Below, piece by piece: positions 43,254-53,304 of a DNA stretch of 64,000 nt. Numbering within the stretch: position 1 is the first letter of the stretch; each line of letters begins with the position of its first letter. This stretch comes from an uncultured Rhodospira sp. (lineage in GTDB: Bacteria; Pseudomonadota; Alphaproteobacteria; Rhodospirillales; Rhodospirillaceae): assembly GCF_937138205.1 (NCBI RefSeq), contig NZ_CAKZOT010000045.1, positions 62,001 to 126,000 on the forward strand. The letters are read 5' to 3'. A program made the translations under genes and the position numbers. The notes under the pieces were generated by a model, which saw only the letters and a program-made list of their open reading frames with translations, did no database searches and had not been told where the DNA came from.

Positions 43254-44066
43254 TTAGAACAGACGCAGCACCGACGATTCGGCCTGGTTGGCGATCGACA
43301 GTGAGATCGTGCCAAGCTGCTGACGGGTCTGCAGCGCCAGCATGTTCGCGGACTCTTCGTTCATGTCGGCGTTCACCAGTTCGCCGGCGCCAACTTCCAG
43401 GGTGTTCACCAGATTGTCGGTGAACTCACGACGCGTCTCAAGGATGGCGTTGTCGGTACCGAACGACTTGGAGTAAGCGCGCAGGTCGTCGATGACCTCG
43501 TCCATCATCCTGATCTGGCTTTGGACGTCGGTCGCGGCATCTTGGGTCGCGAGAGCGGCTGCAATACCGCCGGTCCCTGCGCCGGTCCAGGCACCCACGG
43601 CGGTCATCGTCAGGGTGCTCGAACCCTTTTCGTCAAACTTGACTTTGAGCTGGTCGCCCGTGTTCAGCAGGTTGATGCCCTGATAGTGCGCGTCCTTGAT
43701 CAAATCGTTGATGGCCGAATAGATCCCGGACATATCGGAGGAGATGGTTCCAGGATTGCCAGTATCGGCGGCATAAGCTTCCTGGATGGCCTGGGCCTGC
43801 TTGACCAGCTTGGTGATGGCGTCCAGCGCGTTGGTGGCGGCTTCGATGGTTTTCTGGGCCTGGACGACGCCGTCCTTACGGGCCGCCAAGTCAGAAGCGC
43901 GGTAATTGAAGTCCTGCGCCTTGAAGAAGGCAATCGGATCGTCAAGAACGCTGTTCACTTTTCTGCCGGTCGACAGCTTGAACTGCGTCTCTTCGATATT
44001 AGACGTCGTCCGCTGCAGCGACAGCAGGTTGTTCTGAATGCCCGTGGAGAGGGTAATGTCAGCCAT
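43254..44066 (-). CDS. Flagellin
   Basis: Start MADITLSTGIQNNLLSLQRT has AAGGGA upstream; the track adds 19 residues. The 270-aa product has the flagellin D0/D1 N-terminus (KLSTGRKVNSVLDDPIAFFKA), a short central domain (NLLNTGDQLKVKFDEKGSST), and a C-terminal coiled coil (MNEESANMLALQTRQQLG, ending SSVLRLF). It polymerises into the filament after export. It is a compact alphaproteobacterial type. A Maf protein and TPR gene nearby imply it is modified. The GCAAGA-CAAT-TCTTGC palindrome lies about 120 bases upstream. Confidence 0.95.
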   Translation of the reverse strand: MADITLSTGIQNNLLSLQRTTSNIEETQFKLSTGRKVNSVLDDPIAFFKAQDFNYRASDLAARKDGVVQAQKTIEAATNALDAITKLVKQAQAIQEAYAADTGNPGTISSDMSGIYSAINDLIKDAHYQGINLLNTGDQLKVKFDEKGSSTLTMTAVGAWTGAGTGGIAAALATQDAATDVQSQIRMMDEVIDDLRAYSKSFGTDNAILETRREFTDNLVNTLEVGAGELVNADMNEESANMLALQTRQQLGTISLSIANQAESSVLRLF

Positions 44067-44523
44067 TGTTTTCGTCCCTTCTGGATCGCGGCCCCACCAA
44101 AACCTTATGTGGCGGCGGGGCAACTAGGTTGAATGGCCGTCTCCTGACGACCAATCACATCCTAGCGCCCTGGATCCGGTCGTGCAAGACAATTCTTGCC
44201 TCCTGGACCAAAGACGCGTTGCCTCGGGAGCAAACGCTCGCGGACGTCGACGAAGGTTGGGGTCCCCTACGGAAAGCGCAAGTCGAGCAATTTGACTTGA
44301 TTTCTAAACGAATCGTCAGAATTCCCCCGCGCAATGGGCGCGGGGGCGGCCGGTGCGTCTCCCCACCCTTCGTCATCGTGGAGCGGACGCAGGTCGAAAC
44401 CGCCCAAGCGGTAGGGCAGCGACGCCGTCAAGGGGATACACGCTTGACGGCAACCGTCGCTGCACAACTTTCTGATCCTCAATTCCCCAGTTGGGCGCCA
44501 AGGCTTTGTGAGCCCTGGCCCCC
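44067..44523. other. Gap between flagellin and fixC, with two palindromes
   Basis: About 457 bases without a convincing ORF. It contains a perfect palindrome GCAAGA-CAAT-TCTTGC (44184-44199) on the flagellin promoter side, and a perfect 9-bp stem CCCCCGCGC-aatgg-GCGCGGGGG (44324-44346) that could end fixC transcription. No T-run follows the latter. The frame expected for fixX is not here. Confidence 0.55.
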
Positions 44524-45825
44524 CTACCGCCACGCCCGGCCCAGCTTGACGAGGTCGGTCATCAGCCCGCGCAGCTTCCGCGTGCTTCGGAACGAACCCA
44601 TGATGGCGCGTTCCTTGTCGCGCTTGGGCACGCCGTCCACGCGCAGCATGGTTTCGGCCGCGTTGGTGAGCAGGCGCGGGTAGTCGGTGAAGAAGTGCTT
44701 GTTGGTCTCCAGAATCTTGGGCAGGCGGCGGTACTTCTTCAGGTCGCGCAGGACGAAGCTGTCCTCCAACGCCTTGCGGTAGGCCTTCAGGGTGGCCGCC
44801 GTCATCGGCTTGCCCTCTTTCTTGGCCGCGACGATGGTCTCGGCCGCCAGCCGCCCGGAGGTCATGGCCAGGTTGGAGCCCTCGCGGTGCATGGCGTTGA
44901 GCAACTGCGCGGCGTCGCCGGCCATCACCCAACCGTCGCCGTGCACCTGCGGCACCGCGTTGTATCCGCCCTCGGGCAGCATGTGCGCGGCGTATTCCTT
45001 CGGTTCGCCGCCGGCGATCAGGGGGGCGATGGCCGGATGCTGCTTGAAGCGTTCCAGCAGGAAGTACGGCCGCACCTGGCTCTTGGCGAAGTCGCTGATC
45101 AGGCAGCCGATGCCCACCGACAGGCTGTCGCCGTTGGTGTACAGGAACCCGGTGCCGGTCATGCCCGCCGTGATCGAGCCGGCGGCCTCGATCACCACGC
45201 CCTCGTTGCCCTTCAGGTTGAAGCGCGCGTCGATGGTCTCGCGCGGCATGAAGATGGTTTCCTTGACGCCAAGGGCCACCTCCTGCGGTTTCAGTTCGGG
45301 GCGCAGGCCGGCGCGGCTGCCGACCAGGGCGTTCACACCGTCGGCCAGCACCACCACGTCGGCGGTCACCTCGCCGTCGTCGCGATCCACCTTGACGCCG
45401 ATGACCTTGCCCTTCTTGTCGCGCAGCAGACCGGTCACCGTGGTCTCGCAGATGAGCAGGGCGCCGGCCTCCTTGACCTTGCCGCTGAACCACTTGTCGA
45501 ACTGCGCGCGGATGATGGTATAGCGGTTCGGGCGCTGTTCGTTGAACGTGTCCGAGCGGAAGTGCGAGCCCACATAGGCGTGGTCGTCCAGCATCCACAT
45601 GCGCTGTTCGATGATGTGGCGTTCCAGGGGCGCGCTGTCGCGGAAGTCGGGGATCACCTGTTCCACCGCGTTGGCGTACAGGATGGCGCCCTGCACGTTC
45701 TTGGCGCCGGGGTACTCGCCGCGCTCGATCTGCAACACGGACAGTCCGGCGCGGGCCATCACCAGGGCGGCGCTGTTGCCGGCCGGCCCGGCCCCGACCA
45801 CGATGGCGTCGAAATGTTCGGTCAT
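44524..45825 (-). CDS. fixC: Electron transfer flavoprotein-quinone oxidoreductase FixC
   Basis: FixC is the FAD protein of the FixABCX complex, which bifurcates electrons from NADH to quinone and to ferredoxin/flavodoxin for nitrogenase. The 433-aa product has the FAD fold [19 protein letters not shown] at residues 6-24, then [14 protein letters not shown], and [23 protein letters not shown]. Start MTEHFD lies 92 bases after the fixB stop. FixX, the ferredoxin-like subunit normally next, is missing from the 400 bases downstream. Confidence 0.95.
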
Positions 45826-45917
45826 GCTCTCTGGTCTCCGTGAGACCGGCGGCCCTGGGCGGGCATCGCCGGGTGATCGCGGGCCGGGTTCAGGCCCTTT
45901 GGTTTTTTTGCGGGTCG

Positions 45918-47009
45918 TCAGCCGGCCATCCGGTCGACGGCGAGGCGCTTGCGGAAGGCCTCGGTCAGGGCGGGCAGCAGTTCCAGCACGTCGCCGACGA
46001 TGCCGTGATGGGCGAAGTCGAAGATCGGCGCGTTCGGGTCCATGTTGATGGCCAGGATCTGGTCGGCCCCCTCGGACCCCACGCGGTGCTGAATGGCGCC
46101 CGAGATGCCGCAGGCGATGTACAGGCGCGGGCGGATGGTCTTGCCGGTCTGGCCGATCTGCCGGTCGGCGGTCATCCACCCCTTCTGCACCAGTGGGCGC
46201 GAGCAGCCGTACTCGGCGCCCAGCACCTGGGCCAGGTCGACCACCAGCCGGATGTTCTCCGGCCGTTGCAGGCCCATGCCGCCGGCGACGACGATGTCGG
46301 CGTAAGCCAACTGCGCCTGGTTGGTGTCGGAGTCCGGAATGAAATCCAGAACCTTGGTGACGATGGACTCCTCGGCCATGTCGAGCGGTTCGCGCACCAC
46401 CTCGCCGGTGCGGCCGCGGTCCGGGTCGCCCATGGCCATGACGCGCGGGCGCACGGTGGTCATCTGCGGCCGGGCGGCGCGCGTCATGATGGTGCACAGC
46501 AACGAGCCGCCGAAGGTCGGCCGCGTGGCTGCCAGCGACTTGTCGTCGTCGATGGCCAGTTCCGTGCAGTCGGCGGTCAGCCCGGTTTGCAGCGTGGTGG
46601 CCACGGCACCGGCCAGATCGCGGCCCAGGGTCGTGGCGCCCAGCATCAGAATCTCGGGCTTGTGTTTGTTGACCAGGTCGGTCATCGCCTTGGTGTAGGG
46701 CTCGTTGCGGTACTCGGCCAGCAGCGGATCCTCGATCACGTAGACGCGGTTGGCGCTGTAGTGGAACGCCTCGGCCACCGCCTTTTCGGTGCCCTCGGCC
46801 TTCGGGCCGAGCACGACGCCGCACAGATCGACACCCAGGGCGTCGGCCAGCTTGCGGCCCTCGGTCAACAGTTCCCACGACACGGGGTGGACGCGGCCGT
46901 GTTCCAGTTCGACGAACACCCAGACGTTCTTGTAGGCCTTCAGGTGTTCGGGCAGTTCCTCGGTCTTCTTGCGACCCTTGGCCGGGGGAGCGGCGGGGGC
47001 TTGGGCCAT
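45918..47009 (-). CDS. fixB: Electron transfer flavoprotein alpha subunit FixB
   Basis: The 363-aa product contains the ETF alpha region [35 protein letters not shown], the FAD-binding site, and the N-terminal [31 protein letters not shown]. It pairs with FixA. An Ala/Pro/Lys-rich extension of about 25 residues precedes the fold. It sits 42 bases after fixA in the same operon. Confidence 0.95.
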
Positions 47010-47051
47010 GATATGGTCTCCTTGAAATCTCGCTCGGGCGCGCGGGCCGGG

Positions 47052-47915
47052 TCAGGCGACGGTCGTCTGCTTGGTGAGCACGCTCAAGAGGCGCGGATCA
47101 GCGTCAAGCAGCGTTTCGACGGCGGCGGCGGCGACACTGGCGGGCGCGCCGTCCTCGGCGGTGATCATCTTCGCCTTCTCGGCGCGCGGCTTGGGCGCGA
47201 ACACCTTGCTCACCTTGGTCGGCGAGCCCTTCATGCCGCACTTGCCAAGGTCCTCGACCCCGGCCGCCTCGGCGTTCCACACCTTGATCTCGGCCCGTTC
47301 CGCCCGCAGCACGTCGGGCAGCGAGCCCCGGCGCAGTTCGTTGGTGGCCTCCAGCATGGTGATCAGGCACGGCAGCTTGGTCTTCAGCACCTGCACGCCG
47401 CCCTCGGCGCGGCGGTGCACCGAAATCTCGCCGGCCTCCAGATCAATGGAGGGAATGGCGGAGACATAGGTGAGCTGGTTTAGCCCCATGCGGCGGGCGA
47501 TGCCGGGGCCCACCTGGGCGGTGTCGCCGTCGATGGTCTGCTTGCCGGTGAACACAATGTCGACCGGCCGTTCGGCGCCGATCTTGTTAATCGCCGCCGT
47601 CAACGCATATGAGGTGGCGAGCGTATCGGCGCCGGCGAAGAAGCGGTCGGACAACAGGATGGCGTCGTCGGCGCCGTGACCCAGCGCCTTGCGCAGGGCC
47701 GAGGCGGCCATGGGCGGCCCCATGGTCAGGACCGTCACCTTGCCGCCCAGTTGGTCGCGCAGCTTCAGAGCGGCTTCCAGCGCGAACAGGTCGTACGGGT
47801 TGATGATCGTCGGCACGCCCTGGCGCATGATGGTGTTGGTCACCGGATGCACGCTGATCTGGGCGCTGTCGGGCACCTGCTTGATGCAGACGACCATGTT
47901 CGGGCCTTGGCTCAT
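47052..47915 (-). CDS. fixA: Electron transfer flavoprotein beta subunit FixA
   Basis: The 287-aa product has the ETF beta features [36 protein letters not shown] and [28 protein letters not shown], then [29 protein letters not shown] start at MSQGPN, 8 bases after a GGGGAGAG site; the track uses a start 9 bases earlier. It begins 5 bases after the nifW stop, so is coupled to it. FixAB bind FAD and NADH for electron bifurcation to nitrogenase. Confidence 0.95.
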
Positions 47916-47920
47916 CGGGC

Positions 47921-48247
47921 TCACTCTCCCCTGGATGATGGTGGGGACGGGGACAGCGCCTCCAGGGGAATGAAGGCGCGGCCGGCTCCGTCGGTCTGTT
48001 GTTGGAAGACCGCGAACACCTTCTCGCGGCGGGCGGTCGACGTGACGAAATCGTCGTGCGCGCGCCGCAGGCAGTCACGCAAGATGCTTTCGTCCGGGTC
48101 CTCGTACGCGATCAGGAATTCCCGAAACCGCTTTAGCACATGCAAACGGCTGACGGCCAGTACCTGGGGGTCATAGGCCACGTCAAGGGCTTCGAAAAAC
48201 TCTTCCGCCGCCGAAAGGCCGGCAAGACGCTGCAGTGCGGCATTCAT
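47921..48247 (-). CDS. nifW: Nitrogenase-stabilising/protective protein NifW
   Basis: The 108-aa product contains [37 protein letters not shown] and [18 protein letters not shown], matching NifW. NifW associates with the MoFe protein and protects it or aids its maturation. The ATG overlaps the nifV stop (ATGA); the long track ORF includes antisense nifV tail. It sits between nifV and fixA. Confidence 0.93.
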
Positions 48248-49533
48248 GACGGGATCACCCCTTCTGTTGGAGCCAGCGACCCGCCGATCAGGGGCGGTGT
48301 CATCATCGAGTCGCACGGAGTCGCGTCCCGAGTCGCGGCCGGACCCATGAGCGTTGCGGCGGTCAGTGTCCGGGCTGTCAGGGCGTGCCACTGGCGCAGG
48401 TCATTGGCCTGCGGCGGCCGTTTGCTGTGGCGATAGTGGGCGCGCAACAGCCCGACCATCCGCTGCGCCTGCCCGGCCTCCAGCGTCAGGCCCAGGTCGG
48501 CGCACGCCCGCGCCATGCCAGCGGCGCCCGAGTGCTTGCCCAGCACCAATTGGTGGACGCGGCCCAGGCACGCCGGATCAAGGCCGGTGTAGGTGTCGGG
48601 CTCGCGCAGCAGGCCATGCACATGGATCCCGCTTTCATGACTGAACGCGCCGGATCCCACAAGGCTCTTGCCGCAGGGCACGGGGCGCTCCGCCGCGCGG
48701 GACACAAGATCGGCCAATGCCGGCAACTGACGGGCATCCACGCCCGTCGCGCAGCCGTGCAGGGTTTCCAGGGCGACGGCCACCTCTTCCAGCGCGGCGT
48801 TGCCCGCGCGCTCGCCCAAGCCGACAACGGTCGTGCTGACGTGCGTGGCGCCACCCAGCACGGCGGCCAGGGAATTGGCCACCGCCAGCCCCAGGTCGTC
48901 GTGCGCGTGCATTTCCAGATCCAGGTCCGTCCCGGCCCGCAAGCGTTCGAACAGGGCGCGGGTCGTGAACGGCTCCATCACGCCCAGGGTATCGGCGAAG
49001 CGGAAGCGCTCGGCGCCGGCCGTCGCCGCCGTGTCGATGACCCGGGCGACGAAATCCGCGTCGGCGCGCGAGGCATCCTCGCCGCCGATGCTGACGCGAA
49101 GGCCGTGGTCCCGCGCCCGGCGGACGAGGCGGTCCAGCTCGCTCAGCACCCAGGCGCGCGTCCGCCCCAGCTTGCCGGCGATCTGCCTGTCCGAGACGGG
49201 CGCCGACATGTGGATCATGGACACACCGCAGGCCAAGGCCGCGTCAAGGTCGCGGTCGCTCAGACGGCACCAGACGAACACGGTCGCCCGCAGCGGCAGC
49301 GCCAGAATAGCGCGGATGTCGGCCTGTTCCTCCGCCCCCATGACCGGGATGCCGACCTCCAGCTCCGGCACGCCGGCCTGGTCGAGCGCCGTGGCGATGG
49401 CCAGCTTTTCGTCCCGACTGAAGGCGACGCCGGCGGTTTGCTCGCCGTCGCGCAACGTCGTGTCCGTCAGAACCACCGGCGTACCGGGCCGTTGTGGCAC
49501 GGACCGGTCGATCGCGGCGCCGACTGTGCTCAT
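48244..49533 (-). CDS. nifV: Homocitrate synthase NifV
   Basis: NifV condenses acetyl-CoA and 2-oxoglutarate to homocitrate, the organic ligand of FeMo-co. The 429-aa product starts [12 protein letters not shown] with AAGGGGAGG upstream. Motifs: [22 protein letters not shown] (residues 22-43), [26 protein letters not shown] with the metal-binding HxH, and [18 protein letters not shown] nonconserved tail of about 45 residues follows the LeuA-like domain. It lies 20 bases after iscA. Confidence 0.94.
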
Positions 49534-49553
49534 GCGATGGGCCTCCCCTTGGC

Positions 49554-49871
49554 TCAGGCGCCGGCCTTGGCGCAGCTGCACCGGCCGGCGGCGTTCGGGT
49601 TGTCGAACACGAACCCGGCGCCGCGTTCGTCCTCGACGAAGTCGATGGTCGTTCCGGTCAGCAACGGCGCGCTTTCGGGATCAACGAACACCGACAGGTC
49701 GTCGAAGGTCGTCACGGCATCACCCTCCTCGGCGCCGGCGGCCAAGCCGAGCCGGTATTGAATCCCGGCGCAGCCGCCGGCCGCGACGACAATCCGCAGT
49801 CCGCGCGCCGCGTCGGACCGGCTCACCGCACGTCGGATGGCGCTTTGGGCCGTGTCGGTCAGGGACAGCAT
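49554..49871 (-). CDS. IscA/HesB-type iron-sulfur assembly protein
   Basis: The 105-aa A-type scaffold/carrier has the three conserved cysteines: Cys34 in [14 protein letters not shown] and Cys98/Cys100 in GRCSCAK. Such proteins in nif loci (nif-IscA) deliver Fe-S clusters for nitrogenase maturation. First gene of the minus-strand operon, with AGGAG upstream and a sigma-54 promoter about 60 bases before the start. Confidence 0.93.
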
Positions 49872-49929
49872 GGCGAGGATCTCCTAACAGGTCGATCGGC
49901 GAGCACAAAAAAGAGTCGCCGTGCGGTGC

Positions 49930-49945
49930 AGCAATCAGCGTGCCA
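49930..49945 (-). promoter_or_regulatory. Sigma-54 promoter of iscA-nifVW-fixABC
   Basis: The minus strand reads TGGCACGCTGATTGCT, a perfect match to TGGCACR-N4-TTGCW with GG and GC ten bases apart. It lies 59 bases upstream of the iscA ATG. NifA sites lie about 70 bases further upstream. Confidence 0.9.
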
Positions 49946-50011
49946 AGGCGGTTGAGGCGTGAAATCCGGCCTGGGACAAGGGGTTCCGTCCCCGCCGACG
50001 CAGGACCGCCA

Positions 50012-50027
50012 TGTCGGTGTTGCGACA
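50012..50027. promoter_or_regulatory. NifA upstream activator site 1
   Basis: TGTCGGTGTTGCGACA fits TGT-N10-ACA exactly. It lies between the two divergent sigma-54 promoters, with its partner 31 bp away, so both face the same side of the helix. Confidence 0.85.
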
Positions 50028-50042
50028 ATCCGACAGGCGGCG

Positions 50043-50058
50043 TGTCGCGCCCCGGACA
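50043..50058. promoter_or_regulatory. NifA upstream activator site 2
   Basis: TGTCGCGCCCCGGACA fits TGT-N10-ACA exactly and lies 45 bases upstream of the nifB -24 element. NifA bound here would activate nifB and probably also the divergent operon through looping. Confidence 0.85.
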
Positions 50059-50102
50059 GGCGTACGGTCGCGTAACGTCCTGAAATCGCACAACTTCCAA
50101 AC

Positions 50103-50118
50103 TGGCATCGGGATTGCT
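50103..50118 (+). promoter_or_regulatory. Sigma-54 promoter of nifB
   Basis: TGGCATCGGGATTGCT matches TGGCAC-N5-TTGCW at all but one position, with the invariant GG and GC ten bases apart. It lies 39 bases upstream of the chosen nifB ATG, which rules out the longer track start inside the promoter. Confidence 0.9.
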
Positions 50119-50157
50119 GAGTGGGTCCTGTCCCGCATCGCCAGGGAGACCGGACAC

Positions 50158-51678
50158 ATGACCTCGATGCCGCGCATTCCGCTCGACGGACTGGGATCCG
50201 TCACCACCGCCGCCGACCTTCGCGCCTCGCTGGCGCCGGCATCGGCGGCGGCGCCGGGCCGGACCGTCCGCCTGCCGCATAACAAACGCCGCGAGGCACA
50301 GGGGCCGGCGGAACCCGCCCGCGTCGACCCGGCGGTCTGGGCCAAGGTGAAAGAGCACCCGTGCTACTCCGAGCAGGCGCACCACCATTTCGCCCGGATG
50401 CATGTGGCGGTGGCGCCCGGCTGCAACATCCAGTGCAACTACTGCAACCGGAAATACGACTGCGCCAACGAGAGCCGGCCGGGCGTGGTCTCCGACCGCC
50501 TCACGCCCGAACAGGCGGTCGAGAAGGTGCGCCAGGTGGCGGCGCGCCTGCCGCAGCTCTCCGTGGTGGGCATCGCCGGTCCCGGGGACGCGCTGCACAA
50601 CGCGCCCCGCACGCTGCGGACCTTTGAGTTGATCCGCGCCGAACTGCCGGACCTGACGCTGTGCCTGTCCACCAACGGACTGGCGCTGCCCGACCATGTC
50701 GACGCGCTCAAGGCGCTGGACGTGCATCACGTCACCATCACCCTGAATGCCCTGGACCCCGAGATCGGCGCGGAAATCTACCCCTGGATCGCGCACGACC
50801 ACCGCCGCTGGCACGGGGTGGAGGCCGCCCGGATCCTGCTGGAGCGCCAGATGGAGGGCCTGGAGCGCGCCGTCGCCGCCGGCATCCTGGTCAAGGTCAA
50901 CTCGGTCATGATCCCGGGGATCAACGACGCGCACCTGAAGGACGTGAACCGGGTGGTGCGCGAGAAGGGCGCGTTCCTGCACAACGTCATGCCGCTGATC
51001 TCCGACCCGGCGCACGGCACGCACTTCGGCCTGACTGGGCAGCCCGGGCCGACACCGGTGGAACTCCATGCCCTGCGCGAATCCCTCGGCAACGACGCTC
51101 GCCTGATGCGCCATTGCCGCCAGTGCCGGGCCGACGCGGTCGGAATGCTCGGCCAGGACTCGTGCGGCGACGGGGCAGGGGAGGACGCGACCCCGGCCAC
51201 GGTGGATGCCGATGCGCGCGCCGCCTACCGGGCGGTGGTCGAGGACAGCCGCGCCGAACAGGTCGCCGAGGCGGCCCGCGCCGATGCCCTGGCCGGGTCG
51301 GTGGCCCCGGCCGATGACCGCCGCCTGGTGGCCGTGTGCTCGCGCGGCGGGGGGCGTGTGAACCTGCACTTCGGCAAGGCGACGGAGTTCCATGTCTACG
51401 AGGTGGGCGCCGCCGGCGTGCGCTTCGTCGGCATCCGCCGCGCCGACAACTACTGCCTCGGCGGATACGGCGACGCCGAGCGCATGACGACGATCCTGTC
51501 CGTGCTGGAAGGGATCGACGCCGTGCTGTGCGTCAAGGTCGGCACCGGACCCCGGCGCCGACTGGAGCAAGCCGGCATCGCCGTTCATGAGACCACGGCG
51601 CACGATCTGATCGAGACCACGGTGGCACAGTGGTACGCGGGCGCGGTTCCGGCGGCGCCCGCCGCGCGCCGCGCTTAA
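50158..51678 (+). CDS. nifB: Nitrogenase FeMo-cofactor biosynthesis protein NifB
   Basis: NifB is the radical-SAM enzyme that builds NifB-co, the 8Fe core of FeMo-co with the central carbide. Start MTSMPRIPLDGLG follows AGGGAGA and the sigma-54 promoter. The 506-aa protein has the cluster motif CNIQCNYCNRKYDC (Cys89/93/96) after HHFARMHVAVAPG, the core to about residue 330, and a C-terminal NifX/NafY-like domain from about residue 388 (LVAVCSRGGGRVNLHFGKATEF) that carries the product. An Ala-rich linker joins the two. First gene of nifB-fdxN-nifZ-nifT. Confidence 0.97.
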   Translation: MTSMPRIPLDGLGSVTTAADLRASLAPASAAAPGRTVRLPHNKRREAQGPAEPARVDPAVWAKVKEHPCYSEQAHHHFARMHVAVAPGCNIQCNYCNRKYDCANESRPGVVSDRLTPEQAVEKVRQVAARLPQLSVVGIAGPGDALHNAPRTLRTFELIRAELPDLTLCLSTNGLALPDHVDALKALDVHHVTITLNALDPEIGAEIYPWIAHDHRRWHGVEAARILLERQMEGLERAVAAGILVKVNSVMIPGINDAHLKDVNRVVREKGAFLHNVMPLISDPAHGTHFGLTGQPGPTPVELHALRESLGNDARLMRHCRQCRADAVGMLGQDSCGDGAGEDATPATVDADARAAYRAVVEDSRAEQVAEAARADALAGSVAPADDRRLVAVCSRGGGRVNLHFGKATEFHVYEVGAAGVRFVGIRRADNYCLGGYGDAERMTTILSVLEGIDAVLCVKVGTGPRRRLEQAGIAVHETTAHDLIETTVAQWYAGAVPAAPAARRA

Positions 51679-51710
51679 GTTCACGGCTCATAGAGAGGGG
51701 ATAATCTTCC

Positions 51711-51905
51711 ATGGCTTACAAGATTCTGGGCTCTCAGTGCACGGTCTGCGGGGCGTGCGAGTTCGAGTGCCCGACCGGGGCCATCGCCATGAAGGGCGAT
51801 ACCTACAAGATCGACGCGGCGACCTGCACCGAGTGCGAGGGCCACTTCGACGCGCCGCAGTGCGATGCCGTCTGTCCGGTGCCCGGCACCTGTGTTCCGG
51901 CCTGA
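51711..51905 (+). CDS. fdxN: 4Fe-4S ferredoxin FdxN
   Basis: The 64-aa bacterial-type ferredoxin has two cluster motifs: [12 protein letters not shown] (Cys10, 13, 16, 20) and [18 protein letters not shown] (Cys39, 42, 51, 55), plus Cys61. The eight-residue insertion between the second and third Cys of the second motif is typical of FdxN-type ferredoxins. It donates electrons to nitrogenase reductase or to NifB. It follows nifB by 32 bases. Confidence 0.95.
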
Positions 51906-51922
51906 GCGGCGCGAGGCAGACC

Positions 51923-52237
51923 ATGGCCGAGCCCACACAACACAAAGGTGGCGACGACGGGCTGGTCGAGATCGACCGGCCCCCCGTCTTCGAACCCGGA
52001 ACCAAGGTGCGCGCGCGGGTCCCGGTGCGCGACGACGGCACGACGGCCGGTGCGCGCATCGGCGACGTGCTGGTCGAGGCGGGAGACGTCGGCTACGTCC
52101 GCAGCGTCGGTGCCTTCCTGCAACGCCACTGGATCTACGACGTCGATTTCATCCGAACCCTGCGCGTGGTCGGGATGCGCGCCCACGAACTGGAGAGCGC
52201 GGAGAGCGATCCGCCCCCACCACAAGAGGACGCCTGA
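51923..52237 (+). CDS. nifZ: NifZ family nitrogenase maturation protein
   Basis: The 104-aa product contains the NifZ core FEPGTKVRARVPVRDDGT, then GDVLVEAGDVGYVRSVGAFLQ and WIYDVDFIRTLRVVGMRAHEL. NifZ helps mature the second P-cluster half of the MoFe protein in Azotobacter. The acidic tail DPPPPQEDA is disordered. It lies 17 bases after fdxN and 2 bases before nifT. Confidence 0.93.
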   Translation: MAEPTQHKGGDDGLVEIDRPPVFEPGTKVRARVPVRDDGTTAGARIGDVLVEAGDVGYVRSVGAFLQRHWIYDVDFIRTLRVVGMRAHELESAESDPPPPQEDA

Positions 52238-52239
52238 TC

Positions 52240-52452
52240 ATGAAGATCACCATCCGCAAGGGGACGAATGGGTTCGAGGCCTATGTGCCGAAAAAGGACC
52301 TGGAGGAGCCGGTCACGGCCAGCGAAAAGCCGGACCTGTGGGGCGGCTGGATCGAACTGGCCAACGGCTGGCGCTTTGAGATGCCGGACATGCCGGCCGA
52401 GACCCCGTTGCCGCTGACGCTGGACGCGCGGCGGATCAGTACGGGGGATTGA
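52240..52452 (+). CDS. nifT: NifT/FixU family protein
   Basis: This 70-aa protein is not in the ORF track because of its length. Sequence MKITIRKGTNGFEAYVPKKD and DLWGGWIELANGWRFEMPD matches NifT/FixU. Its role in nitrogen fixation is not clear; mutants usually have little phenotype. The start lies 2 bases after nifZ, so it is coupled. It closes the nifB operon. Confidence 0.93.
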   Translation: MKITIRKGTNGFEAYVPKKDLEEPVTASEKPDLWGGWIELANGWRFEMPDMPAETPLPLTLDARRISTGD

Positions 52453-52630
52453 CAGGGATTCGTTTATCGACGAAATTGCTTCTGCGTAGGCACTTTCGGA
52501 CCGGTAGCGTACTTGTTCCCCGCTGCAGTCTGCGAAGACCAAACACGTGCCACCGTTGGCGTTCAACAGCAACGCCGTCGGCTAGGATGCAATGGTCAGT
52601 CGCGGACGAGCGTTGGGAGACAAGAGCACG

Positions 52631-53005
52631 ATGGCACCTCAACAAACGCAATCCTACTCCGTCCGCCGCTATCTGACGGCAGGGGAGGGGCGAGACCTCT
52701 TCGCGGCATGGCTTTCCGATGTTCGGGACCAGAAAGCCAAGGTTGCCATCCTGAGGCGAGTGAACCGCCTTTCGCTGGGGAATTTCGGCGACTGTAGGCC
52801 ATGCCGCGAAGGGGTTTGGGAACTGCGTTTGGATGTCGGTCCCGGCTATCGGGTTTACTACGCGCTGGCAGGACAGGCGGTGATCCTGTTGCTGTGCGGC
52901 CGGGACAAAAGAACGCAGGATCGCGACATCGACAAAGCCTGTGCGTGTTGGCGGGATTGGTGCCAGCGAGGCGGCGAGGCGGCGAAGCGAGGTGATCGTC
53001 CGTGA
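52631..53005 (+). CDS. RelE/HigB-like addiction module toxin
   Basis: Start MAPQQTQSYSVRRYL; the track adds 13 residues. The 124-aa product has the RelE/Gp49-type pattern FAAWLSDVRDQKAKVAILRRVNRLSLGNFGD, then VWELRLDVGPGYRVYYALAG and LLLCGRDKRTQDRDIDKA. It is expected to be a ribosome-dependent mRNA interferase, inhibited by the antitoxin whose GTG overlaps its stop (GTGA). Confidence 0.92.
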   Translation: MAPQQTQSYSVRRYLTAGEGRDLFAAWLSDVRDQKAKVAILRRVNRLSLGNFGDCRPCREGVWELRLDVGPGYRVYYALAGQAVILLLCGRDKRTQDRDIDKACACWRDWCQRGGEAAKRGDRP

Positions 53006-53304
53006 GGGATCGTTCCCACGATGAGGCCATGGCCGAGGTGTTCCGCGAGGACCCGGAGTTGGCTGTGGCGTTGCTCAACGACATCCTGGCGGATGGCGAC
53101 CAGGGGGAACTGCTGATCGCCCTCCGGCAGATGTCGAAGGCGTTCGGGGGTGTGCCAAAGGTCGCCGAGGAGGCCGGCCTGAACCCGACCCAGCTTTACC
53201 GGACCCTGTCGGAGAGCGGCAATCCAGAACTGCGCGGGTTGCAGGCGATCCTGAAGGCCATGGGTCTGCGCTTGGCCGTCCAACCTCTGGACAAGGCGTC
53301 CTGA
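53002..53304 (+). CDS. Antitoxin of the RelE-like module (HigA/XRE type)
   Basis: The 100-aa product starts at a GTG overlapping the toxin stop. It contains AEVFREDPELAVALLNDILADGDQ, then ALRQMSKAFGGVPKVAEEAGLNPTQLYRTLSESGNPELRGL, a helix-turn-helix typical of addiction module antidotes. It should bind the toxin and autoregulate the operon. The module ends the accessory region next to nif. Confidence 0.92.
   Translation: MRDRSHDEAMAEVFREDPELAVALLNDILADGDQGELLIALRQMSKAFGGVPKVAEEAGLNPTQLYRTLSESGNPELRGLQAILKAMGLRLAVQPLDKAS

Follow-up and report, generated by a model that had tools for sequence, protein, structure and literature searches.

Two operons for nitrogenase maturation and electron supply diverge from one intergenic region in Roseospira, a marine purple nonsulfur bacterium, and this region is best explained as a bidirectional NifA enhancer that switches on both operons together. 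We consider this explanation likely, given the motif geometry and its conservation between genomes. Bidirectional NifA/sigma-54 control as such, already proposed in the preliminary description, is well supported by phylogenetic footprints in five Roseospira, by the presence of one NifA and one RpoN, and by the NifA dependence of Rhodobacter operons (PMC6925177). We further infer that NifA occupies the sites, that both promoters use the pair jointly, and that binding is cooperative.

The iscA/nifB intergenic region and its two operons

Coordinates refer to the window, the whole 64-kb stretch of DNA that was analysed. The start codons of iscA (49871, minus strand) and nifB (50158, plus strand) are separated by a 286-bp gap, which, with its surroundings, contains:

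43254..44123, minus strand, flagellin-like gene
44524..45825, minus strand, fixC-type FAD oxidoreductase (PRK10015/PRK10157 models, below the curated cut-off)
45918..47009, minus strand, fixB-type electron transfer flavoprotein subunit (PF01012 and PF00766)
47052..47924, minus strand, fixA-type electron transfer flavoprotein subunit (PF01012)
47921..48247, minus strand, nifW (PF03206, above cut-off)
48244..49533, minus strand, nifV, homocitrate synthase (TIGR02660, above cut-off)
49554..49871, minus strand, iscA/hesB-type Fe-S assembly gene (IscA-nif, 'iscN'; TIGR00049, above cut-off)
49930..49945, minus strand, putative sigma-54 -24/-12 promoter of iscA-nifV-nifW-fixABC (TGGCACGCTGATTGCT; 12/12 consensus positions, kept in 5/5 Roseospira)
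50012..50027, UAS1, candidate NifA site, iscA-proximal (TGTCGGTGTTGCGACA; exact TGT-N10-ACA with a TGTCG/CGACA palindrome)
50028..50042, spacer between UAS1 and UAS2, 15 bp (length kept at 15, 15, 15, 15 and 14 bp in five species while the sequence drifts)
50043..50058, UAS2, candidate NifA site, nifB-proximal (TGTCGCGCCCCGGACA; exact TGT-N10-ACA)
50103..50118, plus strand, putative sigma-54 -24/-12 promoter of nifB-fdxN-nifZ-nifT (TGGCATCGGGATTGCT; 10/12 consensus positions)
50158..51678, plus strand, nifB (TIGR01290, above cut-off)
51711..51905, plus strand, fdxN-type 2[4Fe-4S] ferredoxin (ferredoxin models below cut-off; position after nifB; kept in relatives)
51923..52237, plus strand, nifZ (PF04319, above cut-off)
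52240..52452, plus strand, nifT (TIGR02934, above cut-off)

Promoter boxes were scored over the 12 informative positions of TGGCACG-N4-TTGCW, with NifA and RpoN consensus motifs as given in PMC4999443, and the iscA box is the sole 12/12 match to the -24/-12 consensus within the window. Both boxes contain GG-N10-GC and have TGT-N10-ACA less than ~150 bp upstream, the features of a NifA/RpoN-dependent promoter. UAS1 and UAS2 start 31 bp apart, as first described, and the two divergent promoters said to flank them are conserved in the genus. The symmetry also claimed for the region is only approximate: the UASs lie 66 and 97 bp from the iscA box but 44 and 75 bp from the nifB box. The 286-bp gap shows no clear IHF site, and matches to the IHF motif number only two, each with two mismatches.

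Profile searches confirmed the ten genes under the names first given to them, with fdxN as a 4Fe-4S ferredoxin. The genome has one full-length NifA (TIGR01817, above cut-off) and one RpoN (TIGR02395, above cut-off), each at a single locus, and nifA lies on the same contig as nifH (C57). No fixX follows fixC: the gap before the flagellin-like gene, at 44130-44524, lacks any ORF that encodes a FixX-type cysteine motif, and a motif search detected none in the window or in loci L061, L062 and L199. FixABC may rely on a different ferredoxin, possibly FdxN. Directly after nifT, at 52592-53304 on the plus strand, two overlapping small genes read in translation as a RelE/HigB-type toxin-like and an HTH antitoxin-like protein.

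IscA-type proteins have housekeeping roles too. For this reason it is conceivable, but very improbable, that nifB alone is NifA dependent and that iscA uses another promoter, its -24/-12 box being idle. The perfect 12/12 iscA box is kept in five species, a scan of 43900-53200 returned no sigma-70-like promoter, nifV and nifW come after iscA, and in Rhodobacter capsulatus NifA is required for the iscN-nifU1-nifSVW operon as well as the nifB operon (PMC6925177), all of which argue against an idle iscA box.

The motifs themselves are short, and the window as a whole is not enriched in TGT-N10-ACA (4 seen versus 5.8 expected), as might be anticipated if short motifs had simply co-occurred in GC-rich DNA. 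It is the local UAS pair, not the window-wide motif count, that is unusual. Two TGT-N10-ACA sites in 286 bp are rare, since the 4.0-Mb genome holds only 186, or about one per 21.5 kb. When the gap was shuffled 4,000 times with its dinucleotide content preserved, no shuffle contained two sites and none contained both promoters at a score of at least 10. Chance co-occurrence, to which we assign almost no probability, was rejected because conservation of the region in four further Roseospira genomes already refutes it.

Conservation within Roseospira

The window was compared with the four other Roseospira genomes that have a complete, readable nifB locus. Divergent iscA and nifB, both sigma-54 promoters and the UAS pair are kept in all five loci, and R. 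marina, R. visakhapatnamensis and G002 also share the order of the ten genes. The five sequences align with 62% per-column identity overall, and the invariant columns are concentrated in the four elements (iscA box 11/16, UAS1 12/16, UAS2 10/16, nifB box 12/16). These are thus 62-75% invariant, as against 6/15 columns in the spacer and 24/207 (12%) in the remainder of the gap.

Distances between elements differ in how strictly they are held. The two UASs are 31, 31, 31 and 30 bp apart in the four other genomes, and this is the least variable gap of the region. UAS1 lies 65-66 bp from the iscA promoter in four species and 77 bp in one. UAS2 lies 44 bp from the nifB promoter in three species and 91-92 bp in two, a shift of 47 bp; strict phasing to the promoter is lost in these two, because 91-92 bp is about half a turn off the 44-bp register.

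A second UAS pair of similar spacing occurs at the nifH promoter, with distances of 32, 32, 32 and 31 bp in four of the five Roseospira species; the fifth has one exact UAS only. Promoter-to-UAS gaps in the four are 90-92 and 121-124 bp, close to the nifB geometry of two species (91-92 and 122-123 bp). In the genome studied here the nifH promoter faces draT (draT and draG were identified by reading the translation), and the nifH/draT gap (G000:C57:69400-69730; loci L161 and L195) combines the 32-bp UAS pair with a weaker box toward draT, CGGCATGGGGTTTGCG. The nifH/draT region is possibly a second bidirectional NifA element. Elsewhere in the genome, a nifE-like gene (G000:C79:29355-29437; locus L197) is associated with a strong sigma-54 box that has one exact UAS 52 bp farther upstream.

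Spacing of NifA sites across nifB promoters

We surveyed 162 distinct nifB promoters from 80 genera, each combining a sigma-54 box with one or more exact UASs, and set their orientation by the NifB radical-SAM motif. A UAS pair is present in 54 of the 162 and a single exact UAS in the other 108. A pair is therefore unnecessary for NifA activation in general. Where pairs occur, the distances fall into two classes: with each distance counted once per genus, 23 are at 17-21 bp and 14 at 28-33 bp, and none of the surveyed promoters has a spacing of 22-27 or 34-37 bp. This clustering at two and three turns supports helical phasing, first suggested for the 31-bp distance, as a preferred spacing in about 20 families; the preference may reflect cooperative NifA binding. 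With one value per family, Rayleigh R is 0.68 at 10.5 bp (p ~6e-5 versus uniform; ~19 families, 16-45 bp) and distances would miss both half-turn zones by chance with a probability of ~5e-4; both values are rough because families are treated as independent. Restricted to 25-66 bp, periodicity is marginal (p ~0.04) with a poorly resolved period, and a clean 10.5-bp period running through all distances was sought but not seen outside the two main classes. In the 80 large loci, TGT-N10-ACA pairs less than 66 bp apart are almost absent away from sigma-54 boxes (2 versus 24 pairs).

Within its family, Roseospira stands out by its three-turn spacing, since the other genera use 17-20 bp (one 52). Across the 80 genera, the proximal UAS of nifB promoters tends to lie about 44-46, 55-56 or 72-75 bp from the -24/-12 box, which suggests face-of-the-helix placement relative to the promoter.

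The chief rival to a shared enhancer is that each promoter has its own site, with UAS1 serving mainly iscA and UAS2 mainly nifB, without cooperation. A single UAS is, after all, the commonest state of nifB promoters, and the 44 bp between nifB and UAS2 and the 65-66 bp between iscA and UAS1 are both within the range of other nifB promoters. Independent sites, however, sit poorly with a UAS-UAS distance of 30-31 bp that is the least variable of the region when a UAS-promoter gap varies by 47 bp, with the preference of nifB pairs in many families for two or three turns, and with the recurrence of similar UAS spacing at nifH/draT. We regard this alternative as unlikely, if worth serious consideration.

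More generally, and tentatively, NifA enhancers across Proteobacteria may hold paired sites at two or three turns and avoid half-turn offsets, and the three-turn enhancer of Roseospira may nucleate a single oligomer that serves both outward-facing promoters.

Proposed mechanism, related systems and significance

Under nitrogen-fixing conditions, NifA dimers would bind both TGT-N10-ACA sites. With the two UASs on one helix face and three turns apart, an active AAA+ oligomer would assemble there and, by DNA looping, remodel RpoN-RNA polymerase at either flanking -24/-12 promoter. The FeMo-cofactor and accessory genes of both operons would thereby be switched on together.

Published work on NifA and related activators, together with the Rhodobacter data (PMC6925177), makes a shared, same-face enhancer the best reading. 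An isolated UAS is bound only weakly by a NifA DNA-binding domain (Kd 20-35 uM), and the authors of that work point out, from the precedent of NtrC/NtrC1, that sigma-54 activators at full length may bind cooperatively to paired UASs (PMC10590331). For CbrB, it is suggested that placement on the same face may matter more than how well the sites are conserved, and having several UASs is described as favouring oligomerisation (PMC6296734).

The two promoters could also compete, with one NifA oligomer looping to one promoter at a time and so fixing the ratio of operon output. A pair of UASs has room for two dimers of one oligomer, and the two promoters lie within 100 bp on either side. Competition is a refinement of the shared-enhancer explanation and not an exclusive alternative, and the two are indistinguishable by sequence; we hold it to be improbable.

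Several known systems resemble the shared enhancer in part. The NifA/RpoN-dependent iscN-nifUSVW and nifB-fdxN operons of Rhodospirillales and Rhodobacter (PMC4999443, PMC6925177) have the same TGT-N10-ACA sites, -24/-12 promoters and gene groups, whereas in Roseospira the operons are back to back with one common UAS pair, and iscA is followed by nifV-nifW-fixABC without nifUS. The nifB promoters of neighbouring genera, such as Caenispirillum, also have two UASs and one sigma-54 promoter, with a proximal gap of mostly 44-47 bp, but they lack a divergent iscA and space their UASs at 17-20 bp (two turns, not three). At the anfH promoter of R. capsulatus, two AnfA dimer sites likewise lie upstream of a sigma-54 promoter and both are needed for full expression, although AnfA is a different activator with the motif TAC-N6-GTA and acts in one direction only (PMC7294313).

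Further afield, the NtrC pair at E. coli glnA is about three turns apart and its binding is cooperative. Its spacing is thus about the same as that of the Roseospira pair and its activator belongs to the same class, but it is NtrC, not NifA, and serves a single sigma-54 promoter. Another partial parallel is the nifB/nifH region of a UBA1303 alphaproteobacterium (locus L119), in which a UAS pair is also placed between two divergent sigma-54 nif promoters; there, the partner gene is nifH and the UAS spacing is 38 bp.

An opposite-pointing sigma-54-like box within reach of the UASs occurs in 15 of 157 distinct nifB promoters. Five of these, all Roseospira, lead to iscA-nifV, one (L119) leads to nifH, and the remainder are weak or without clear assignment. 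An orientation-independent tblastn search of 110 nifB loci found no back-to-back iscA/nifB outside Roseospira, and no published divergent iscA/nifB NifA region was found in a literature search that covered few subscription papers. Shared or paired NifA sites are already known; iscA back to back with nifB was seen, among the loci searched, only in Roseospira.

The arrangement would place ten genes for nitrogenase maturation and electron supply under a single control element of 190 bp, small enough to be moved and dissected. Natural variants within the genus, with a promoter gap of 44 or 91-92 bp and a UAS spacing of 30 or 31 bp, provide ready-made test pieces, and with the spacing rule of nifB promoters the cooperativity of NifA on neighbouring sites becomes directly testable.
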